Origin: Stappia indica
Lineage (GTDB): Bacteria > Pseudomonadota > Alphaproteobacteria > Rhizobiales > Stappiaceae
Direction: 5' to 3'
NCBI RefSeq assembly: GCF_009789575.1
Contig: NZ_CP046908.1
Span: 1,178,001-1,242,000, forward strand
DNA: 64,000 nt
Shown here: piece after piece, positions 34,420 through 41,918 of the stretch
Numbering within the stretch: position 1 is the first letter of the stretch
Layout: every line of letters begins with the position of its first letter
Made by a program: the position numbers and the translations under genes
Notes under the pieces: generated by a model
The model's database searches: none
The model's input: only the letters and a program-made list of their open reading frames with translations
What the model was told of the DNA's origin: nothing

Positions 34420-34574
34420 CTGCCGCATTTTATATGCTTAACTCGCTGCGACCGGCAGCCATGGGGGGCGCCGAACGATGCTCCCACCCGCGCCGGTCGC
34501 CGGAGTCCAATACGGCCCTGCCCAGCCCGTCCCTCGGGCGGCAACGAGGGCGAGACAGGAAGACAGAGGCTAAG

Positions 34575-35756
34575 ATGGCGGAAGCAGCAGCTCAGACCGG
34601 ACTTTCTCCGATGCAGTATCTCGACAAGGCGGTGGCCGCCCTGCGCGACATGGGCCTGATGCCCGACGGCACCGCCGAGGCGCCGATCAACGCGCTGCTG
34701 GAAAGGATCTCCGACCTGTCTCCGGACAAGATCGCGGTGATCACCCGCACGCTCGGCCAGTCGCAGACCTTCAACGAGGTGGTGCGCAACGAGATCCAGG
34801 CCATGTCGATCGGCGAACGCTACGAGGCGATCACCGAGGCCTTCAACTCGATCCGCGACGACGCCAAGGGCATGGTCGACCAGCTGGCCGACGGCAAGAT
34901 CTCCTTCATGGAGAACATGTCCAACAAGTGGCGCGACATGACGCGGGGCACCGTCTCCGACCGCTTCGGCAAGATCAGGGAGACCTATCTCGACGTCGCC
35001 CGCGACACCAAGGACCAGATCGAGCGCGAACAGCGCATCCTGGAGGCCTATCGCGATTTCCGCGGCGCGCTGAAGCAGGCCGAAGTCCTGGCGCTCGAAG
35101 TGCTGAACACCGCCACGGCCCGCCTGGAAGAGGCCAAGGCCGCGCTGGAGGCCTCCAACAAGGAAGTCGAGGCGCATGACGGCGGCGACGCTGCAGCCAA
35201 GGCTCGCCTGGAATTCGCCCGCGACGAGAAGATGCGCGCGATGCAGGACGAGGAGAAGCGCTACCAGATCGCCAAGGACCTCTCCGACAACCTGACCATC
35301 GGCTACAACACGTCGGAAGTGATCATGGCGCGTCTGATGCAGACGACCAACGCCAAGGAGCGGGTCTATGCGCAGTCGGTGACCTTCTTCTCCACCAACG
35401 ATTCCGTGCTGACCGCGCTGAATGCCTCCTTCACCGGCCTGCACGGTCTGCACGAATCGACCGAGGCGCTCAACGCCATGAAGGACGGCGTGTCGAAGTC
35501 GCTGGAGACCCTGGCGGAGATCGGCGATGCGGTGCAGGAAGCGGCGCTGAAGGCCGGCTACGGCCCGACCATCCAGGCGGCAGCCGTCAAGAAGCTGGTC
35601 GACTCGGTCATCAACTTCCAGGTCAACTCGCGCGAGATCATCAACGAGATGCGCGTCATGTCGACGAAGAACTCCGAGGAGATCCGCGACGCGGTCGAGG
35701 ACGGCAAGCGCCGTCTTGCAAAGCTCGCCGCGCAGGGCAACATGATCGGCGCCTGA
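34575..35756 (+). CDS. Long alpha-helical cytosolic protein, first gene of the membrane-lipid block
   Basis: A 393-residue protein with no signal peptide or transmembrane segment that is mostly helix. Heptad-like stretches occur at 145-240 (YLDVARDTKDQIEREQRILE, EAKAALEASNKEVEAH). The C-terminal half carries many aligned hydrophobic residues (NTSEVIMARLMQTTNAKERV). The family is unknown to me; the C-terminal layout is faintly like TelA (toxic anion resistance) proteins, which I cannot test. It starts a tight, same-strand series of eight genes ending in YnbA/YnbB/PlsC-type lipid enzymes. Such long helical proteins often act on membranes or as scaffolds. A ribosome site GAGGC lies upstream, with 155 bp from psuG. 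Confidence 0.7.
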   Translation: MAEAAAQTGLSPMQYLDKAVAALRDMGLMPDGTAEAPINALLERISDLSPDKIAVITRTLGQSQTFNEVVRNEIQAMSIGERYEAITEAFNSIRDDAKGMVDQLADGKISFMENMSNKWRDMTRGTVSDRFGKIRETYLDVARDTKDQIEREQRILEAYRDFRGALKQAEVLALEVLNTATARLEEAKAALEASNKEVEAHDGGDAAAKARLEFARDEKMRAMQDEEKRYQIAKDLSDNLTIGYNTSEVIMARLMQTTNAKERVYAQSVTFFSTNDSVLTALNASFTGLHGLHESTEALNAMKDGVSKSLETLAEIGDAVQEAALKAGYGPTIQAAAVKKLVDSVINFQVNSREIINEMRVMSTKNSEEIRDAVEDGKRRLAKLAAQGNMIGA

Positions 35757-35844
35757 GCCGCCCGCAAGGGAACCGCATCCATCACGGCCGGCCGCGGATA
35801 TCCGGGGCCGGTCCTGCCGCAAAAGGCTGCAGGGGAACGAGTGC

Positions 35845-36783
35845 ATGGCCTCCGACACCGCCTCGACCAGGGCGCCGCTCGATGAGCTGATGATGGCGAT
35901 GGACGTGGTCGACACGCTGCGCCACGACGAACGCATCGCGCTGAAGGAACTCGGCTCGGACGAGCGCGACGCTGCGATGATCCAGCGTCTGCGCGAGATC
36001 TATACGAGCCAGGGCATCGAGGTTTCCGACCGCCTTCTGCGCGAAGGCGTCGAAAACCTGAAGCAGAACCGCTTCGTCTACAGTCCGCCCGCAGCCGGCT
36101 TCCAGCGCACGCTGGCGCTGATCTATGTCACGCGCCTGCGCTGGGCGAAGGCCATTCTTGTCCTGCTGCTGCTGGCCGTTGCCGCAGCGCTGGCCTGGCA
36201 TTTCCTGGTGACCGCCCCGCGCGAGCGGGCCGCCGAGGCGCTGCGGATCGAGCTGACGCAGACCCTGCCGACGGAGATCGCCGCAACGGTGCGCCGGATC
36301 GGCGAGGTGAGCGAGGAAACCGCCGCCCGCGAACGGGCCGCGACGCTGGCCACCGGCGGCCAGGCGGCCCTTGCCGCGAACGACGCGGCCGCCGCCCGCA
36401 AGGCGCTCGCCGACCTCAAGGCGCTGGAGGCGCGCCTGCTGCAGGTCTACGACATCCGCATCGTGTCCCGTCCGGGCACGCCGACCGGCGTCACCCGCAT
36501 CCCCCAGGCCAACACCTCGGCGCGCAACTACTACCTTCTCGTCGAGGCAGTGGCGCCGGACGGAAAGATCGTGCCGCAGGAAGTCACCTCCGAAGAGGAC
36601 GGCGCCCGCAAGACGGTCGCCATCTGGGGCCAGCGGGTGCCGCAATCGACCTTCGACGCGGTGCGCCGCGACAAGGAGGAGGACGGCATCGTCAGCAATC
36701 CGGTACTCGGCAGCAAGGCGCGCGGCAGGCTGCAGCCCGAGTGGCAGGCCCGGGTGGAGACGGGAGCGATCACGCAATGGTAG
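35845..36783 (+). CDS. DUF6384-like bitopic membrane protein
   Basis: A 312-residue protein with a cytosolic N-terminal domain of about 90 residues (DELMMAMDVVDTLRHDERIA, then GIEVSDRLLREGVENLK and FVYSPP), one transmembrane helix at about residues 92-115 (AKAILVLLLLAVAAALAWHF), a helical stalk rich in Ala/Arg/Glu, and a C-terminal beta-like domain (NYYLLVEAVAPDGKIV). This order fits my memory of the DUF6384 family, which has no known function. Topology is likely N-in/C-out. It is 88 bp from the preceding helical protein gene. ACGAGTGC before the ATG gives a weak ribosome site. Confidence 0.68.
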   Translation: MASDTASTRAPLDELMMAMDVVDTLRHDERIALKELGSDERDAAMIQRLREIYTSQGIEVSDRLLREGVENLKQNRFVYSPPAAGFQRTLALIYVTRLRWAKAILVLLLLAVAAALAWHFLVTAPRERAAEALRIELTQTLPTEIAATVRRIGEVSEETAARERAATLATGGQAALAANDAAAARKALADLKALEARLLQVYDIRIVSRPGTPTGVTRIPQANTSARNYYLLVEAVAPDGKIVPQEVTSEEDGARKTVAIWGQRVPQSTFDAVRRDKEEDGIVSNPVLGSKARGRLQPEWQARVETGAITQW

Positions 36784-36877
36784 CTCTTGCCGGAACGGCA
36801 TCGCGCCGAACGACATTTGAGGGAGGGACCGGCGGGAGGCCGGCAGGCACGAACAGAACGGCAAGGGGCACGCGGGC

Positions 36878-38335
36878 ATGGTGAGCGGACGTCAGACCCT
36901 CGGCTCGATCGAAAGGGCGCTCGGTGAGGTCCGGCAGGAGGAAGACCTCCTGCGGCGGCGCGTCGACGACGCCATGCGCGAGATCAACGATCTGCGCGGC
37001 GCCGAGCTGGAAGCGTTCCGGGAGCTTGCCCGCTTTCGCCTGCGCGAAGGCGGCGACAAGGCCTTCGGCCAGCGCATCGACAAGGACGAGGCCGAGGCCC
37101 GTCGCCAGCTGGAACAACGGGAGCTGGCGCTATCGGCCTTACGCGCCCAGCATGATGCCCTGACGAGCGACGTCGCCGCGCTCACCGAGCAGCGCCGCCG
37201 CCTGACGCGCGAGCGCGATGCGGCGAGCGACCGGCTCGACGCCATTCTCGAGGCCGTCGACAAGAAGCTTGCCGGCGATCCGGCCTACACCGCCCAGCGC
37301 GAGGCGGCGGAAGCCGCGCAGCGCACCGCAGAAGCGGCGCGGTCCAAGGCACGGCAAGCGCAGGACGACCGGGCCGCCAAGAGCAAGGCCTACGAGGACG
37401 ACGCGCTCTTCGCCTATCTCTGGAAGCGCGGGTTCGGCACCTCGACCTATCGTTCGACCGGCCTCATCCGCATGCTCGACCGCTGGGTGGCACGGCTCAT
37501 TCGCTACAATGATGCGCGCCCCAACTACGCCATGCTGGTGGAGATCCCGCATCGGCTCGACGCCTATGCCAGCGACCGAGAGGCGGAGGCGCAAGCGGAA
37601 CTGGCCAAGCTCGGCGCCCTGTCGCGCCAGGCGGCCGCGGACGTCGCCGGCGAAGACCTTGCCGCGGCCATCGAAACCGCCGAACGCGAGATCGAGGACA
37701 CGACGGCAACGCTGGAGAAGCTGGAAGTCGAGCTTGAGGAACTGGGCAAGCGCGAGCAGCCCTATCTCTCCGGCGAGGATTCCGAGTTCCGCACCGCCGA
37801 GGAGGCCTTGCTGCGCTCGCTGCGCTCCGAGGAACTGACCACCCTGTGGCAGGAGGCGCTCGCCACCCCCTCGCCCGAGGACGAGCGGATCGTCCGCCGT
37901 CTGCAGGATCTCGACGCCCGCATCGAGATCCTGAACAGCGCAACGGAAAACGACCAGCGCACGCTGCGCGACCTTGCCCGCCGGCGCGACGAGCTGGCCA
38001 AGGTGACGCGCCAGTTCCGCCAGAAGCGCTACGACACCTGGGACTCCACCTTCGACAATGACAGCCTGACCGGCGTGCTGCTCGGCGAGCTGGCCAAGGG
38101 CGCCCTGTCGGGGGCCGACTACTGGGCCAAGGCCGAGAAGTCGCGCAAGCGGCGCAAGCGCCACGGCGGCGGCGTCGGCTTTCCCGGCGGCATCGGCCTG
38201 CCCGGCTCCATGGGTGGGTTCGGGGGTGGGTCCGAGGGCGGCTCGGGAGGTGGACGCGGCGGCTTCGGCGGCGGCGGCTTCGGAAGCGGCGATTCCTTCG
38301 GCGGTGGCGGCTTCAAGACCGGCGACACGTTCTGA
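36878..38335 (+). CDS. Long coiled-coil protein with glycine-rich C-terminus
   Basis: A 485-residue protein of unknown function. Residues 1-130 form one continuous coiled coil (RQEEDLLRRRVDDAMREI through RRRLTRERDAASDRL). A compact middle segment of about 60 residues (ALFAYLWKRGFGTSTYRS...NYAMLVEIP) is followed by a second coiled coil (240-400). The last 75 residues are a Gly/Ser/Phe-rich, disordered tail preceded by KSRKRRKRHGGG. There is no signal or membrane helix. It sits third in a block leading to lipid enzymes. A DUF-family name is possible, but I do not recognise one with confidence. Confidence 0.7.
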   Translation: MVSGRQTLGSIERALGEVRQEEDLLRRRVDDAMREINDLRGAELEAFRELARFRLREGGDKAFGQRIDKDEAEARRQLEQRELALSALRAQHDALTSDVAALTEQRRRLTRERDAASDRLDAILEAVDKKLAGDPAYTAQREAAEAAQRTAEAARSKARQAQDDRAAKSKAYEDDALFAYLWKRGFGTSTYRSTGLIRMLDRWVARLIRYNDARPNYAMLVEIPHRLDAYASDREAEAQAELAKLGALSRQAAADVAGEDLAAAIETAEREIEDTTATLEKLEVELEELGKREQPYLSGEDSEFRTAEEALLRSLRSEELTTLWQEALATPSPEDERIVRRLQDLDARIEILNSATENDQRTLRDLARRRDELAKVTRQFRQKRYDTWDSTFDNDSLTGVLLGELAKGALSGADYWAKAEKSRKRRKRHGGGVGFPGGIGLPGSMGGFGGGSEGGSGGGRGGFGGGGFGSGDSFGGGGFKTGDTF

Positions 38336-38528
38336 TCGTTCGCACCCGGACCTCCAACCGGGCACGCGCCTTGGCACATTCGCCGGGATGCCTGTGCCCG
38401 CAGTCTTTGTTAACTTCGCTGTCGCAAGCTTGCGCTTGCGCGAAAGATCCGCCGACACCGCCTTCCAGGTGCCGCCCGGATATCCTGCCCGTATCCGGGC
38501 CCTTACAGTCTTCTTGGGGATTGCCGCA

Positions 38529-39020
38529 ATGCTGCTCCGCCTGACCCTCGTCCTCGTCGCCGCCACGGCGCTTACCGCCTGCCAGTCCGGCCGGCGCGGA
38601 CCCGCCCCGGTCGAACCGCAGCAGGCGGTGCTGACCGTGCCGACCGGCGCGCAGTCGATCACCGTGCGGGCGAATACCGAGACGGTTCGCCAGACCATCG
38701 TCGCCAACGCGACGGAGCGCGGCACGCCGATCACCCAGAACCAGCCCAACATGGTGATTCTGGAGCGGACGGTGACGGGAGAGAACCCGGCCCTCGACAG
38801 CGAGTTCGGCCCCTCCGACAACGGCCCGCGCAAGTTCCGCATCCGCGTCCGCTTCCAGGGCACCGGCTGCGATACGCTGGTGGTGCAGGACGTCGCCGTC
38901 GTCAACAATGCCGGCACCGCGTTGGAGCAGGTCTTCACCCTGACCCAGCCGCAATACAACCCGCGCGACAGTCTTGTCGGCCTGAAGTCGAAGGCCGAAT
39001 CCGGCGCCCGCTGCATCTGA
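38529..39020 (+). CDS. Lipoprotein of unknown function
   Basis: A 163-residue protein with a lipoprotein signal: MLLRLTLVLVAATALTACQS. The lipobox is LTAC, putting the lipidated cysteine at residue 18. The mature part (RRGPAPVEPQQAVLTVPTG, then SITVRANTETVRQTIVANAT and FRIRVRFQGTGCDTLVVQDV) looks like a small beta-rich periplasmic domain with two further cysteines (in GTGCDTL and GARCI) that could pair. I recognise no family. An earlier in-frame ATG exists, but homology of the signal and lipobox decides for this one. It lies between the coiled-coil gene and the ynbA-like gene. Confidence 0.72.
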   Translation: MLLRLTLVLVAATALTACQSGRRGPAPVEPQQAVLTVPTGAQSITVRANTETVRQTIVANATERGTPITQNQPNMVILERTVTGENPALDSEFGPSDNGPRKFRIRVRFQGTGCDTLVVQDVAVVNNAGTALEQVFTLTQPQYNPRDSLVGLKSKAESGARCI

Positions 39021-39148
39021 CGGCAGAGCCGGCAAACCTGAGGGGAGCGACCTTGTCGCTTCCCTGCCGTTGCATGCGAGGCGAAAACGCGCTTGTCTCG
39101 CGGTCGGGTTGAATCGAACTTCCCCTCCCGCTCGCAACCGGCAGCGCC

Positions 39149-39766
39149 ATGGCCACCGTCTATGATCTGAAATCCCGCTTCCAGGACCTGCTGCGCCCGA
39201 TCGTGCGCGCCCTGGCGCGCGCGCGCATCACCGCCAACCAGGTGACGCTGGCGGCCCTCGCCCTGTCCGTGATCGCCGGGCTCGCGATTGCCCTGTGGCC
39301 GGCCGCCGGCCTGCCGCTCGCGCTCCTGCCCCTGGTGCTGTTCTTGCGAATGGCGCTCAACGCCATGGACGGCATGTTGGCCCGCGAGCACCATCAGCAG
39401 TCGGCGCTAGGCGCCGTGCTCAACGAACTCGGCGACGTCGTTTCCGACCTGGCGCTCTACCTGCCCTTTGCGCTTGTCCCCGGCGTCTCGCCGATGGCCG
39501 TCGTCAGCCTGTGCCTGCTGGCCGTGATCAGTGAGATGACGGGTGTCGTCGGCATCCAGATCGGCGCCTCGCGGCGCTATGACGGACCGCTCGGCAAGAG
39601 CGACCGGGCCGTCCTGTTCGGCACGCTCGGCCTGTTGCTCGGCATCGGCCTCATCGGCCCCGTCTTCGCCAACTGGGTGCTGGCAGTCGCGCTGCTTCCC
39701 GCCGCCCTCACCATCTTCAACCGCGCCCGCAAGGCGCTGGCCGAGGTCCGGGAGGGCCGTCCGTGA
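39149..39766 (+). CDS. ynbA: CDP-alcohol phosphatidyltransferase, YnbA-type
   Basis: A 205-residue integral-membrane phosphatidyltransferase with about six helices. The CDP-alcohol motif is at residues 71-96: N71-x2-D74-G75-x2-A78-R79-x8-G88-x3-N92-x3-D96. In typical enzymes positions 71 and 92 are aspartate, so two metal-binding residues are replaced by asparagine. I recall the same substitutions in E. coli YnbA (NALDGMLAR ... LNETGD), so this marks the YnbA subfamily rather than a degenerate copy. Product and alcohol acceptor are unknown. It overlaps the next gene (ynbB-like), whose GTG start lies in its stop region. Confidence 0.85.
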   Translation: MATVYDLKSRFQDLLRPIVRALARARITANQVTLAALALSVIAGLAIALWPAAGLPLALLPLVLFLRMALNAMDGMLAREHHQQSALGAVLNELGDVVSDLALYLPFALVPGVSPMAVVSLCLLAVISEMTGVVGIQIGASRRYDGPLGKSDRAVLFGTLGLLLGIGLIGPVFANWVLAVALLPAALTIFNRARKALAEVREGRP

Positions 39767-40707
39767 GCCTGTTCGACGACCTCACTCCGCTCCACCTCGC
39801 CATTGCCGGCATCTGGGGCATCCTGGTCCTTGCCAGCATCCTCGTCTTCGCGCTGAAGCGTCTTCAGCCCCATCGCGACCACTCCGAGCTGGTCAGCCGC
39901 ACGGTGAGCTGGTGGGGCATGATTGCCCTGTTCACCGCTGCCTTCCTGCTGAGCCGGACGCTCTCCATCGTGCTATTCGCGCTGGTGAGCTTCCTCGCCT
40001 TCAAGGAATACCTGTCGATGATCCCGACGCGCCGGGCCGACAGGCGGGTGCTGTTCTGGGCCTATCTGTCGATCCCCGTCCAGTATTACTGGGTGGCGGA
40101 CGGCTGGTACGGCATGTTCGCCGTGTTCATCCCGGTCTACATGTTCCTGTTCCTGCCCTTCTCCATGCTGCTGTCGCAGCAGACGGAAGGCTTCCTGAAG
40201 GCGATCGGCACGCTCAACTGGGGCCTCATGCTCTGCGTCTTCTCGCTGAGCCATGCCGCCTTCCTGCTGGTGCTGCCGGTGACCGGCAACACGGATCCGC
40301 AGGCGGGCGCCGGCCTGCTGCTCTATCTGGTCTTCCTGACCCAGTTCAACGACGTCGCCCAATACACCTGGGGCCGGCTGTTCGGCCGCCGCCCCATCGT
40401 GCCCGTCGTCAGCCCCAAGAAGACCTGGGAAGGCTTCCTCGGCGGATTGCTGACGACGACGGTGGTGGCGGTTCTCGCGGCGCCGCTGGTGACGCCCTTC
40501 GACTGGCAGCAGGCGGCGGCGGCAGGACTGATGATCGCGGCCGCCGGTTTCATCGGCGACGTCACCGTCTCGGCGGTGAAGCGCGATCTCGGCGTCAAGG
40601 ATACCGGCGCGCTGATCCCCGGCCACGGCGGCATCATGGACCGGATCGACAGCCTGACCTTCACCGCGCCGCTGTTCTTCCACTTCGTGCGCTACTTCCA
40701 CACGTGA
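39763..40707 (+). CDS. ynbB: Phosphatidate cytidylyltransferase, YnbB-type
   Basis: A 314-residue CDP-diacylglycerol synthase-like membrane enzyme. The GTG start overlaps the stop of the YnbA-like gene by 4 bp (GTGA), implying translational coupling. Eight or so hydrophobic segments precede the signature SAVKRDLGVKDTGALIPGHG followed by MDRIDSL, which carries the K-R-x4-K-D and H-G-G-x2-D-R residues of the CdsA family. NDVAQYTWGRLFGRRPIVP and SPKKTWEGFLGG are typical of the YnbB branch. It probably makes CDP-diacylglycerol for the adjacent YnbA-like enzyme. Confidence 0.88.
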   Translation: MSLFDDLTPLHLAIAGIWGILVLASILVFALKRLQPHRDHSELVSRTVSWWGMIALFTAAFLLSRTLSIVLFALVSFLAFKEYLSMIPTRRADRRVLFWAYLSIPVQYYWVADGWYGMFAVFIPVYMFLFLPFSMLLSQQTEGFLKAIGTLNWGLMLCVFSLSHAAFLLVLPVTGNTDPQAGAGLLLYLVFLTQFNDVAQYTWGRLFGRRPIVPVVSPKKTWEGFLGGLLTTTVVAVLAAPLVTPFDWQQAAAAGLMIAAAGFIGDVTVSAVKRDLGVKDTGALIPGHGGIMDRIDSLTFTAPLFFHFVRYFHT

Positions 40708-40714
40708 GGGCGCA

Positions 40715-41368
40715 ATGACGCGCGTGCTGCAGATCCTGTTCTTCCTGGCAGTGCGCATCGTCGTGCTGTTCGTGCTGGGGCTGAACGTGCGCCGGCGCGA
40801 ATGGCTGCCGGAGCACGGGCCGGCAGTGATCGTCGCCAACCACAACAGTCATCTCGATACGCTGGTGCTGATGTGCCTGATGCCCCTGTCGAAGCTGCAC
40901 CTGCTGCGTCCGGTCGCCGCCGCCGACTACTTCCTCGCCAACAGGGCGATGGCCTGGTTCTCGCTCAACATCCTGCGCATCATTCCCATCGTCCGCAAAC
41001 CGGGTGAGCGGAAGGACGGGGCGCCCGGCGCCGACCCGCTGGCCGAGTGCCACGCCGCACTGGCCAAGGGCGAAATCCTGATCCTGTTTCCCGAGGGCAG
41101 CCGCGGCGAACCGGAAAAGATGACCGCGCTGAAGAAGGGCATCGCCCATCTTGCCGAGAAGAACCCGCATGCCCCCGTCGTGCCGGTCTTCACCCATGGG
41201 CTCGGCAAGGCGCTGCCGAAGGGATCGTTCCTGCTGGTGCCGTTCTTCTGCGACATCTTCGTCGGCGAACCGATCCGCTGGCCGGGCGACCGCACCGCCT
41301 TCATGGAAACGCTCACCGCGCGCTTCGCTGCCCTCTCCGCGGAGAAGACCTTTGCGTCTTGGGAATAG
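40715..41368 (+). CDS. PlsC-type 1-acyl-glycerol-3-phosphate acyltransferase
   Basis: A 217-residue membrane-associated acyltransferase, beginning 7 bp after the YnbB-like gene. An N-terminal membrane helix (LQILFFLAVRIVVLFVLGL) is followed by the catalytic HX4D motif NHNSHLD (His43, Asp48), the second block IVRKPGE region, and the phosphate-binding FPEGSRGEP near residue 123. All four PlsC blocks are recognisable. Activity on lysophosphatidate would feed phosphatidate directly to the preceding cytidylyltransferase, but the true substrate is unknown. E. coli YnbC at the same locus position is not a PlsC, so the locus differs from that of E. coli. Confidence 0.85.
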   Translation: MTRVLQILFFLAVRIVVLFVLGLNVRRREWLPEHGPAVIVANHNSHLDTLVLMCLMPLSKLHLLRPVAAADYFLANRAMAWFSLNILRIIPIVRKPGERKDGAPGADPLAECHAALAKGEILILFPEGSRGEPEKMTALKKGIAHLAEKNPHAPVVPVFTHGLGKALPKGSFLLVPFFCDIFVGEPIRWPGDRTAFMETLTARFAALSAEKTFASWE

Positions 41369-41918
41369 CTGGTGGAATAGGCTGGTCACGCTGGGTGCCG
41401 GCCTGTGGGGCCTTGCCGAGGCGACCGTCTTCTTCATCGTGCCGGATGTGCTGCTGAGCTTCATCGCGCAGGTCTCGCTGAAGCGCGCGCTTCTTGCCGC
41501 CCTTGCAGCTGTGGCCGGAGCGCTGGTCGGCGGCGCGTTGCTCCACGCTTTCGCAAACGCCGATCCGCAAGCCGCGCAGGCGCTGCTCCTGAACGTGCCG
41601 GGCATCTCACCCGAATTGGTCGCGCGGGTGGCCGAGCTGACCGAGCACGGCCAGCTCGCGGGCATGGTCGCCGGCTCCTTGAGCGGCGCACCCTACAAGA
41701 TCTTCGCCGTGGACGCGGCGACGGCCGGAGTGCCGCTCTGGGCGTTCCTCATGGCAAGCGCGCCGGCACGCCTGCTGCGGTTTGCGCTCGTTGCCCTTGC
41801 GAGCTGGCTCGTCTTCGCAAGGCTGCTCGGGCACCTTGCGCTGCGTACCCGCCGTCTACTGCTCGCCGGCGCGTGGCTGGCGTTCTACGCGGGCTATTTC
41901 ACCGCGATGGGCTGGTAA
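41352..41918 (+). CDS. Polytopic membrane protein, possible VTT/DedA-like
   Basis: A 188-residue membrane protein on a TTG start at 41352, chosen because GGAG lies 7 nt upstream and no ATG or GTG exists in the relevant region. It overlaps the end of the acyltransferase gene by 17 bp. There are about five hydrophobic helices. The segment GSLSGAPYKIFAVDAATAG recalls the re-entrant loop of YqaA/DedA (VTT domain) proteins, which act as lipid scramblases or transporters, but the match is weak. Its position in a lipid-enzyme operon is consistent. It is convergent, 48 bp apart, with cckA. Confidence 0.65.
   Translation: MRLGNSWWNRLVTLGAGLWGLAEATVFFIVPDVLLSFIAQVSLKRALLAALAAVAGALVGGALLHAFANADPQAAQALLLNVPGISPELVARVAELTEHGQLAGMVAGSLSGAPYKIFAVDAATAGVPLWAFLMASAPARLLRFALVALASWLVFARLLGHLALRTRRLLLAGAWLAFYAGYFTAMGW

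Follow-up and report, generated by a model that had tools for sequence, protein, structure and literature searches.

We analysed a 64,000-nucleotide stretch (the window) of a complete, 5.1-Mb single-contig genome of a Stappia-like bacterium (Stappiaceae, Hyphomicrobiales), in which eight reading frames, all on the forward strand, are found between positions 34575 and 41918 (Table 1). The same-strand series of eight genes that had been read at this place in the original prediction is borne out, and so is its gene-by-gene description: a helical protein, a DUF6384 bitopic protein, a coiled-coil protein, a lipoprotein, three lipid enzymes of the YnbA, YnbB and PlsC types and a polytopic membrane protein. 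The joining of the eight genes into one unit did not hold. The locus looks like two independent gene sets, a triad formed by genes 1 to 3 and a lipid cassette formed by genes 5 to 7, often followed by gene 8, which are adjacent by local synteny in the Stappiaceae group.

Table 1. Genes of the analysed locus, in positions of the window.
Gene	Coordinates	Strand	Product and features
Gene 1	34575..35756	+	393 residues, all-helical, without membrane segment; triad member, candidate remote TelA relative
Gene 2	35845..36783	+	DUF6384 bitopic protein, 312 residues; triad member
Gene 3	36878..38335	+	485-residue coiled-coil protein, Gly-rich tail ending GGGFKTGDTF; triad member
Gene 4	38529..39020	+	Small lipoprotein; LPAM_1 match below its cut-off; outside the conserved triad
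Gene 5	39149..39766	+	YnbA-type CDP-alcohol phosphatidyltransferase; first and third signature Asp replaced by Asn
Gene 6	39763..40707	+	YnbB-type cytidylyltransferase; CDP-diglyceride synthetase signature intact
Gene 7	40715..41368	+	PlsC-type acyltransferase; NHX4D and FPEG motifs intact
Gene 8	41352..41918	+	Polytopic membrane protein; weak VTT-domain resemblance

Tight packing is limited to genes 5 to 8, and the earlier statement that the last four genes overlap or lie at most 7 bp apart was correct: genes 5 and 6 overlap by 4 bp, genes 6 and 7 are separated by 7 bp, and genes 7 and 8 overlap by 17 bp, given a TTG start for gene 8. The spacers between consecutive genes from 1 to 5, according to the coordinates, are 88, 94, 193 and 128 bp. 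The ATG taken as the start of gene 1 is preceded by a purine-rich stretch, and in-frame ATGs upstream, at 34434 and 34461, are also possible. For the family searches, gene 4 was entered from 38526 (one codon early) and gene 8 from 41370. In Pfam, gene 2 matched DUF6384 (PF19911) with 434 bits against a cut-off of 25, over positions 2-308 of 308; gene 5 matched CDP-OH_P_transf (30.7 bits, cut-off 22), gene 6 CTP_transf_1 (231 bits, cut-off 24) and gene 7 Acyltransferase (73.5 bits, cut-off 23). Genes 1, 3, 4 and 8 presented no Pfam or NCBIfam family above the cut-off, and the score of gene 8 against the Pfam family VTT (VTT/DedA) was 18.1 bits, below the cut-off of 33.9. In a simple hydropathy scan, gene 2 shows a single membrane region, gene 4 a signal segment and gene 7 one segment at its start; genes 5, 6 and 8 have several segments each, and genes 1 and 3 have none. 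Neither RNA families at the gathering score nor tRNA genes were found in the window; the promoter and terminator scan returned one site each, both on the minus strand and not usefully above the shuffled expectation.

The conservation of the locus was evaluated in two sets of loci. The first one comprises every DUF6384 match above the cut-off in two genome searches, with up to about 19.5 kb around each, that is, 29 loci from 28 genomes, the window not counted. For the second one, 84,980 named species genomes were searched, which gave 571 relatives of gene 1, and the best 80 of these 571 were analysed. Among them, 42 loci (L076-L117), mostly of Stappia, Pannonibacter, Roseibium or Labrenzia, form what we call the Stappiaceae group, and the other 38 are referred to as outside loci; four loci labelled only by class, order or as Rhodobacteraceae (L079, L093, L094 and L107) were assigned to the group by gene 1 identity. 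Genes 1, 2 and 3 occur together in all 29 loci of the first set. In the second set, the triad is present in fixed order in 78 of the 80 named loci, and in the two exceptions (L126 and L127) the contig ends less than 150 bp past gene 2. The closest gene 1 among these 80 is that of a Stappia locus (L076), with 99% identity. Genes 1 to 3 are therefore a conserved three-gene cluster, probably an operon, whose neighbours vary from group to group. A lone weak DUF6384 match (L032, E-value 5e-4, below the cut-off) had no triad gene beside it and was excluded from the flank analysis.

With the own genome counted each time, gene 1 was found in 66 of 249 genomes drawn from Hyphomicrobiales, and in wider draws in 2/398 and 4/397 genomes of the phylum and in 2/387 of the class, where all matches fell within the same class; few candidates were scored per genome in these draws, so that misses are possible. 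Two genomes have two triad copies each (G091, with L033 and L034; G293, with L192 and L193), and the first of them lies outside the order. A divergent gene 1 relative of 333 residues, encoded on the minus strand of another Hyphomicrobiales genome (G337, L186:9588-10586), was seen without detectable genes 2 and 3.

The genes that follow the triad have other distributions. Gene 4 is present in 40 of the 42 Stappiaceae-group loci and in none of the 38 outside loci; genes 5 to 7 in 17/42, within about 10 kb of the triad, and 0/38; gene 8 in 12/42 and 0/38. In the first locus set, the relatives of gene 4 are confined to the window's own family, and genes 5 to 7 appear in 11 loci of its own genus (L048 has them on the opposite side) and in one more genus. 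The original prediction was to be refuted if the first four genes occurred widely without the lipid enzymes: genes 1 to 3 do so, and gene 4 is not widespread. The idea of a membrane-linked conserved protein set stands for genes 1 to 3, while the joining of this set to lipid enzymes is an arrangement of the Stappiaceae group.

That all eight genes could work as one system, with the helical and bitopic proteins organising or sensing the membrane and the enzymes making a special lipid, finds a point in its favour in the 12 Stappiaceae-group loci that carry all eight genes in order. These are only 12 of the 80 named loci, however, and the cassette is missing from the flanks examined of all 38 outside loci and of 25 of the 42 inside the group; the flanks are short in some of them, since six outside loci extend less than 10 kb past the beginning of gene 1 and L098, of the Stappiaceae group, ends soon after gene 3. 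Furthermore, in loci with a downstream cassette the gap after gene 4 can be as small as 112 bp or as large as 5.2 kb; L077 has its cassette upstream of the triad. A close relative of gene 6 (E-value at most 1e-40) was found in 25 of 61 relatives. One single-contig genome (G196) has the triad without gene 6 at that threshold, three others (G224, G235 and G236) have a close gene 6 relative without gene 1, and in five (G208, G213, G223, G225 and G228) gene 6 and the triad are on different contigs. Standalone cassettes with the order YnbA-YnbB-PlsC are found on plasmids of E. coli, Pseudanabaena and Bacteroides, and none of these plasmids is one of the 11 records matching gene 1 that are described below. 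The distribution contradicts a single eight-gene system as a conserved unit, and we consider a joint function of this kind very improbable.

A YnbA-YnbB-PlsC lipid cassette is formed by genes 5 to 7, after which gene 8 often comes, and it has a distribution of its own. The order of the enzymes is that of YnbA-YnbB in E. coli and of YnbA-YnbB-PlsC on plasmids, and gene 6 is 51% identical to the E. coli plasmid copy; the cassette of the E. coli plasmid has a hydrolase/methyltransferase fusion in addition, whereas in the window a VTT-like membrane protein comes next. The signature of CDP-alcohol phosphatidyltransferases is DxxDGxxARx8GxxxDxxxD. In gene 5 it reads NxxDGxxAR...GxxxNxxxD, with asparagine in place of the first and third aspartates, and this pair is shared by the window copy and every one of the 20 aligned relatives (21/21), from Stappia to the plasmid copies of E. 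coli, Pseudanabaena and Bacteroides, the last of which also lacks the arginine. Among the other six matches to the family in the same genome, five keep both aspartates and the sixth (L261) is off the pattern. Gene 6 fits the signature of CDP-diglyceride synthetases (CdsA/YnbB) and gene 7 the PlsC motifs. Since the YnbA-type protein lacks two aspartates of its family signature, a standard or complete side-branch lipid route, as had been proposed for these enzymes, is doubtful. According to the consulted part of PMC6362211, YnbB of E. coli is no substitute for CdsA, and its overproduction raises MPIase. In view of this behaviour, the cassette may work towards a specialised glycolipid, or catalyse an unusual reaction, instead of making bulk phospholipid.

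Coming back to the triad, its distribution extends to plasmids and viruses. In 72,556 plasmid records, 11 matched gene 1 and the same 11 matched genes 2 and 3; a twelfth record, of Rhodanobacter, gave a weak gene 2 match only. The 11 plasmids are of 0.32-1.39 Mb, and seven of them are from Pseudomonas (0.32-1.17 Mb). Eight of the 11 regions were inspected; six of them entered the diverse profiles of genes 1 to 3, and the two unannotated ones were checked separately. Five annotated Pseudomonas regions have, adjacent to each other, a gene labelled hypothetical or 'merozoite surface protein 3b', a DUF6384 gene and a hypothetical gene; the Bradyrhizobium region shows the identical gene order, with the label 'cell surface protein'; and the unannotated regions of R. 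leguminosarum and M. extorquens contain all three genes, in order. The label 'merozoite surface protein 3b', a malaria name, on the gene 1 relatives of three Pseudomonas plasmids (L211, L214 and NZ_CP017294.1) is apparently a carried-over misannotation. Near the triad, CRISPR genes were observed, with a type IV csf2 gene at about 5 kb on pMRCP2 and type I-F genes at about 12.5 kb on pMPPla107 (Pseudomonas plasmids, L211 and L262). On two Pseudomonas megaplasmids (L212 and L213), the triad is preceded by a gene with a StiP domain, presumably connected with tellurium systems, and by a peptidyl-tRNA hydrolase gene. The annotation of pMPPla107 lists no ter gene at 50 kb or less from the triad.

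The sole match in 50,697 phage records was the Yersinia jumbo phage phiR1-37 (262 kb; two records), whose gp190, gp191 and gp192 are in the same order as genes 1, 2 and 3. The alphaproteobacterial profiles matched these proteins with E-values of 2.7e-118, 1.5e-26 and 3.2e-6, respectively, calculated for a set of 24 sequences. The g190 named in PMC5312081 belongs to phage AR9 and not to phiR1-37. Four more contigs, from IMG/VR, have gene 1 relatives; three of them hold the whole triad and the remaining one (L226) ends inside gene 2. An integrase-like frame was recognised by eye near the triad of L224, so that these contigs may represent host DNA next to a prophage.

An alternative reading of the triad is a device for organisation or exclusion that belongs to large replicons (large plasmids, jumbo phages), for example one that keeps other phages or plasmids out at the membrane, and that was later fixed in alphaproteobacterial chromosomes. 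That both large plasmids and the 262-kb phage carry the triad, and that CRISPR genes lie at 13 kb or less from it on two plasmids, agrees with this proposal. On the other hand, many copies lie on genome contigs, as the counts given above indicate (571 relatives in 84,980 species, 66/249 genomes of the order), the neighbours of the triad differ between groups, and the anti-phage families of PADLOC, rejected as candidates, gave only weak matches, the best with an E-value of 0.0067. We regard this explanation as quite unlikely. Somewhat more favourable, although still rather unlikely, is a self-contained membrane-protection or exclusion machine that moves among chromosomes, large plasmids and jumbo phages. 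In such a machine, a divergent TelA-type protein would act with its own bitopic DUF6384 sensor and a tail-bearing coiled-coil partner, and it would protect the host cell, and also the phage-infected cell, from envelope attack.

The products of genes 2 and 3 present recognisable architectures. In gene 2 the hydrophobic segment covers residues 97-125, approximately. Its structure model, with a mean predicted local distance difference test (pLDDT) of 83.8, consists of N-terminal helices, a helix at 97-155 that holds the hydrophobic segment, two more helices and, at about 202-312, a C-terminal beta domain of strands and one helix. Nine residues of gene 2 are invariant in 14 diverse members, a C-terminal tryptophan among them. 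In the literature search, no paper naming the DUF6384 family was found. Gene 3 is a coiled coil whose central block is conserved and whose tail is rich in Gly and Ser; GF.TG..F is invariant in 18 close members. Similar ends (SDSF, SDRF, SDSL, TGGSF) were observed in the six plasmid members and the phage member aligned, and the copies of R. leguminosarum and M. extorquens have different ends.

Gene 1 is very conserved, with a mean column identity of 78% in an alignment that used 18 of 30 rows (the 29 loci and the window), from which mostly near-identical copies had been dropped. By eye, its C-terminal third is TelA-like. To make the comparison, we built a TelA profile from 8 of 14 matches of the same class; those left out include one with a stop, one short and one below the cut-off. 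As the gene 1 profile was diversified, the hhalign score against TelA rose from 30.5 to 33.2 and 35.3, with probabilities of 9, 16 and 23%; in the final alignment (score 35.3, probability 22.5%) 271 columns are collinear. When the columns were shuffled in blocks of 1, 7 or 14, none of 300 controls reached 35 and the top score was 29.9, and the reversed TelA profile scored 13.4. In addition, when the gene 1 model was compared with viral predicted structures by Foldseek, a TelA protein was at the top of 520 matches (E-value 5.9e-4, probability 1.00), and tellurite resistance proteins were at ranks 3 and 37 among the best 50. On this weak evidence we lean towards gene 1 being a remote relative of TelA.

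Several results weigh against a TelA-like reading of the triad. The hhalign probabilities are low (9-23%), and the first and third alignments share a register while the second places the N-terminal half in another one, which lowers our confidence. With shuffled blocks of 28 columns, 3 of 100 controls reached 35, the top one with 38.5, and the profiles of genes 1 and 3 scored 29.7 against each other, so that generic helical similarity explains part of the TelA score. Gene 1 has no match to the Pfam TelA family (PF05816) at an E-value of 1 or less. Its structure model is poor (mean pLDDT 67.4), and neither this model nor that of gene 2 retrieved a solved structure from the PDB at an E-value of 0.001 or less. 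Normalised by query length, the template modelling scores (TM-scores) of the TelA fold matches lie between 0.27 and 0.36. The viral match at rank 2, with a similar E-value, is an unrelated-looking squirrelpox (poxvirus) protein. For gene 2, no XpaC family was reported at an E-value of 1 or less in Pfam and NCBIfam. As regards the phage, the match of gp192 is of just 16.9 bits and comes partly from its Ser/Gly tail (SSSDSF), and its assignment as gene 3 therefore rests also on its position.

Other searches were likewise negative. TelA was not among the families listed (25 of 36) for 18 gene 1 members at an E-value of 10 or less, and PF05816 has no match in the own genome. Sequence searches of the PDB gave nothing convincing with the profiles of genes 1, 2 and 3, nor with the TelA profile, whose best match, a partial one, had an E-value of 0.00043.

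Some of these observations would be expected if the triad were a structural complex, cytoskeletal or otherwise, without relation to TelA, in which case the fold match would only reflect long helices. In this sense, the weak PDB fold matches of gene 1 by Foldseek were to chemoreceptors and alpha-pore-forming helical proteins, and the score between genes 1 and 3, the change of register and the low confidence of the gene 1 model point in the same direction. That ranks 1, 3 and 37 of the listed viral fold matches are taken by TelA or tellurite resistance proteins, together with the collinearity of the final alignment, argues against such a complex, which we consider unlikely.

The comparison with known systems is informative here. 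TelA and gene 1 are both long helical proteins of about 400 residues, connected by the weak profile match and the top viral fold match, and in both cases a neighbouring gene codes for a protein that has a membrane segment. TelA, which acts in toxic-anion (tellurite) resistance and envelope tolerance, is often beside XpaC, as in the Listeria pairing described in the part of the literature consulted, whereas the partner of gene 1 is a clear member of DUF6384, here the middle gene of a fixed triad. The alphaproteobacterial TelA loci examined have conserved neighbours other than the triad partners, which we take to be XpaC or SPFH; in 5 of 10 of them a conserved frame, with a hydrophobic stretch seen by eye, lies directly upstream of TelA. 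A Listeria mutant with a disrupted TelA homologue is more susceptible to nisin and tellurite, according to the consulted part of PMC12791056 (citing Collins 2010), and this phenotype is a precedent for the protective role proposed for the triad. A possible membrane-protection role and helical proteins are also common to the triad and the PspA/phage-shock system, but membership of the latter was discarded, since none of the eight proteins had a PspA match at an E-value of 1 or less. In the main text of a comparative study of phage-shock-protein partners (PMC11237479), as far as the part consulted goes, 'tellur', 'SPFH' and 'phosphatidyltransferase' are not found.

Considering all the above, the explanation that we prefer is that of two gene sets side by side, in which the triad would be a compact TelA-like envelope-protection system; we assign it a probability of roughly 0.45. 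According to this proposal, gene 2 would span the inner membrane and its C-terminal domain would read the periplasm, while gene 1, as a TelA-type helical protein, and gene 3, with its coiled coil and low-complexity tail, would assemble on the cytosolic side of gene 2. The resulting complex may reinforce or mend the membrane when it is attacked, for instance by toxic anions, membrane-active peptides or phages. The lipid cassette, in turn, would have been brought near the triad by local synteny in the Stappiaceae group. That the helical and bitopic proteins act in envelope stress, as had been suggested for the locus, remains plausible; this role would depend on a possible fold of the TelA kind and not on lipid synthesis.

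The triad is an uncharacterised membrane system. As a fixed cluster that about one quarter of the sampled Hyphomicrobiales genomes contain, judging by gene 1, and that also occurs in large plasmids and one jumbo phage, it is conserved enough to matter, and in the annotated records inspected its first and third genes are labelled hypothetical, 'cell surface protein' or 'merozoite surface protein 3b'. The conserved changes from aspartate to asparagine in YnbA cast doubt on the product of the YnbA-YnbB-PlsC cassette. If the link between gene 1 and TelA is true, a TelA-type protein would gain a defined set of partners.

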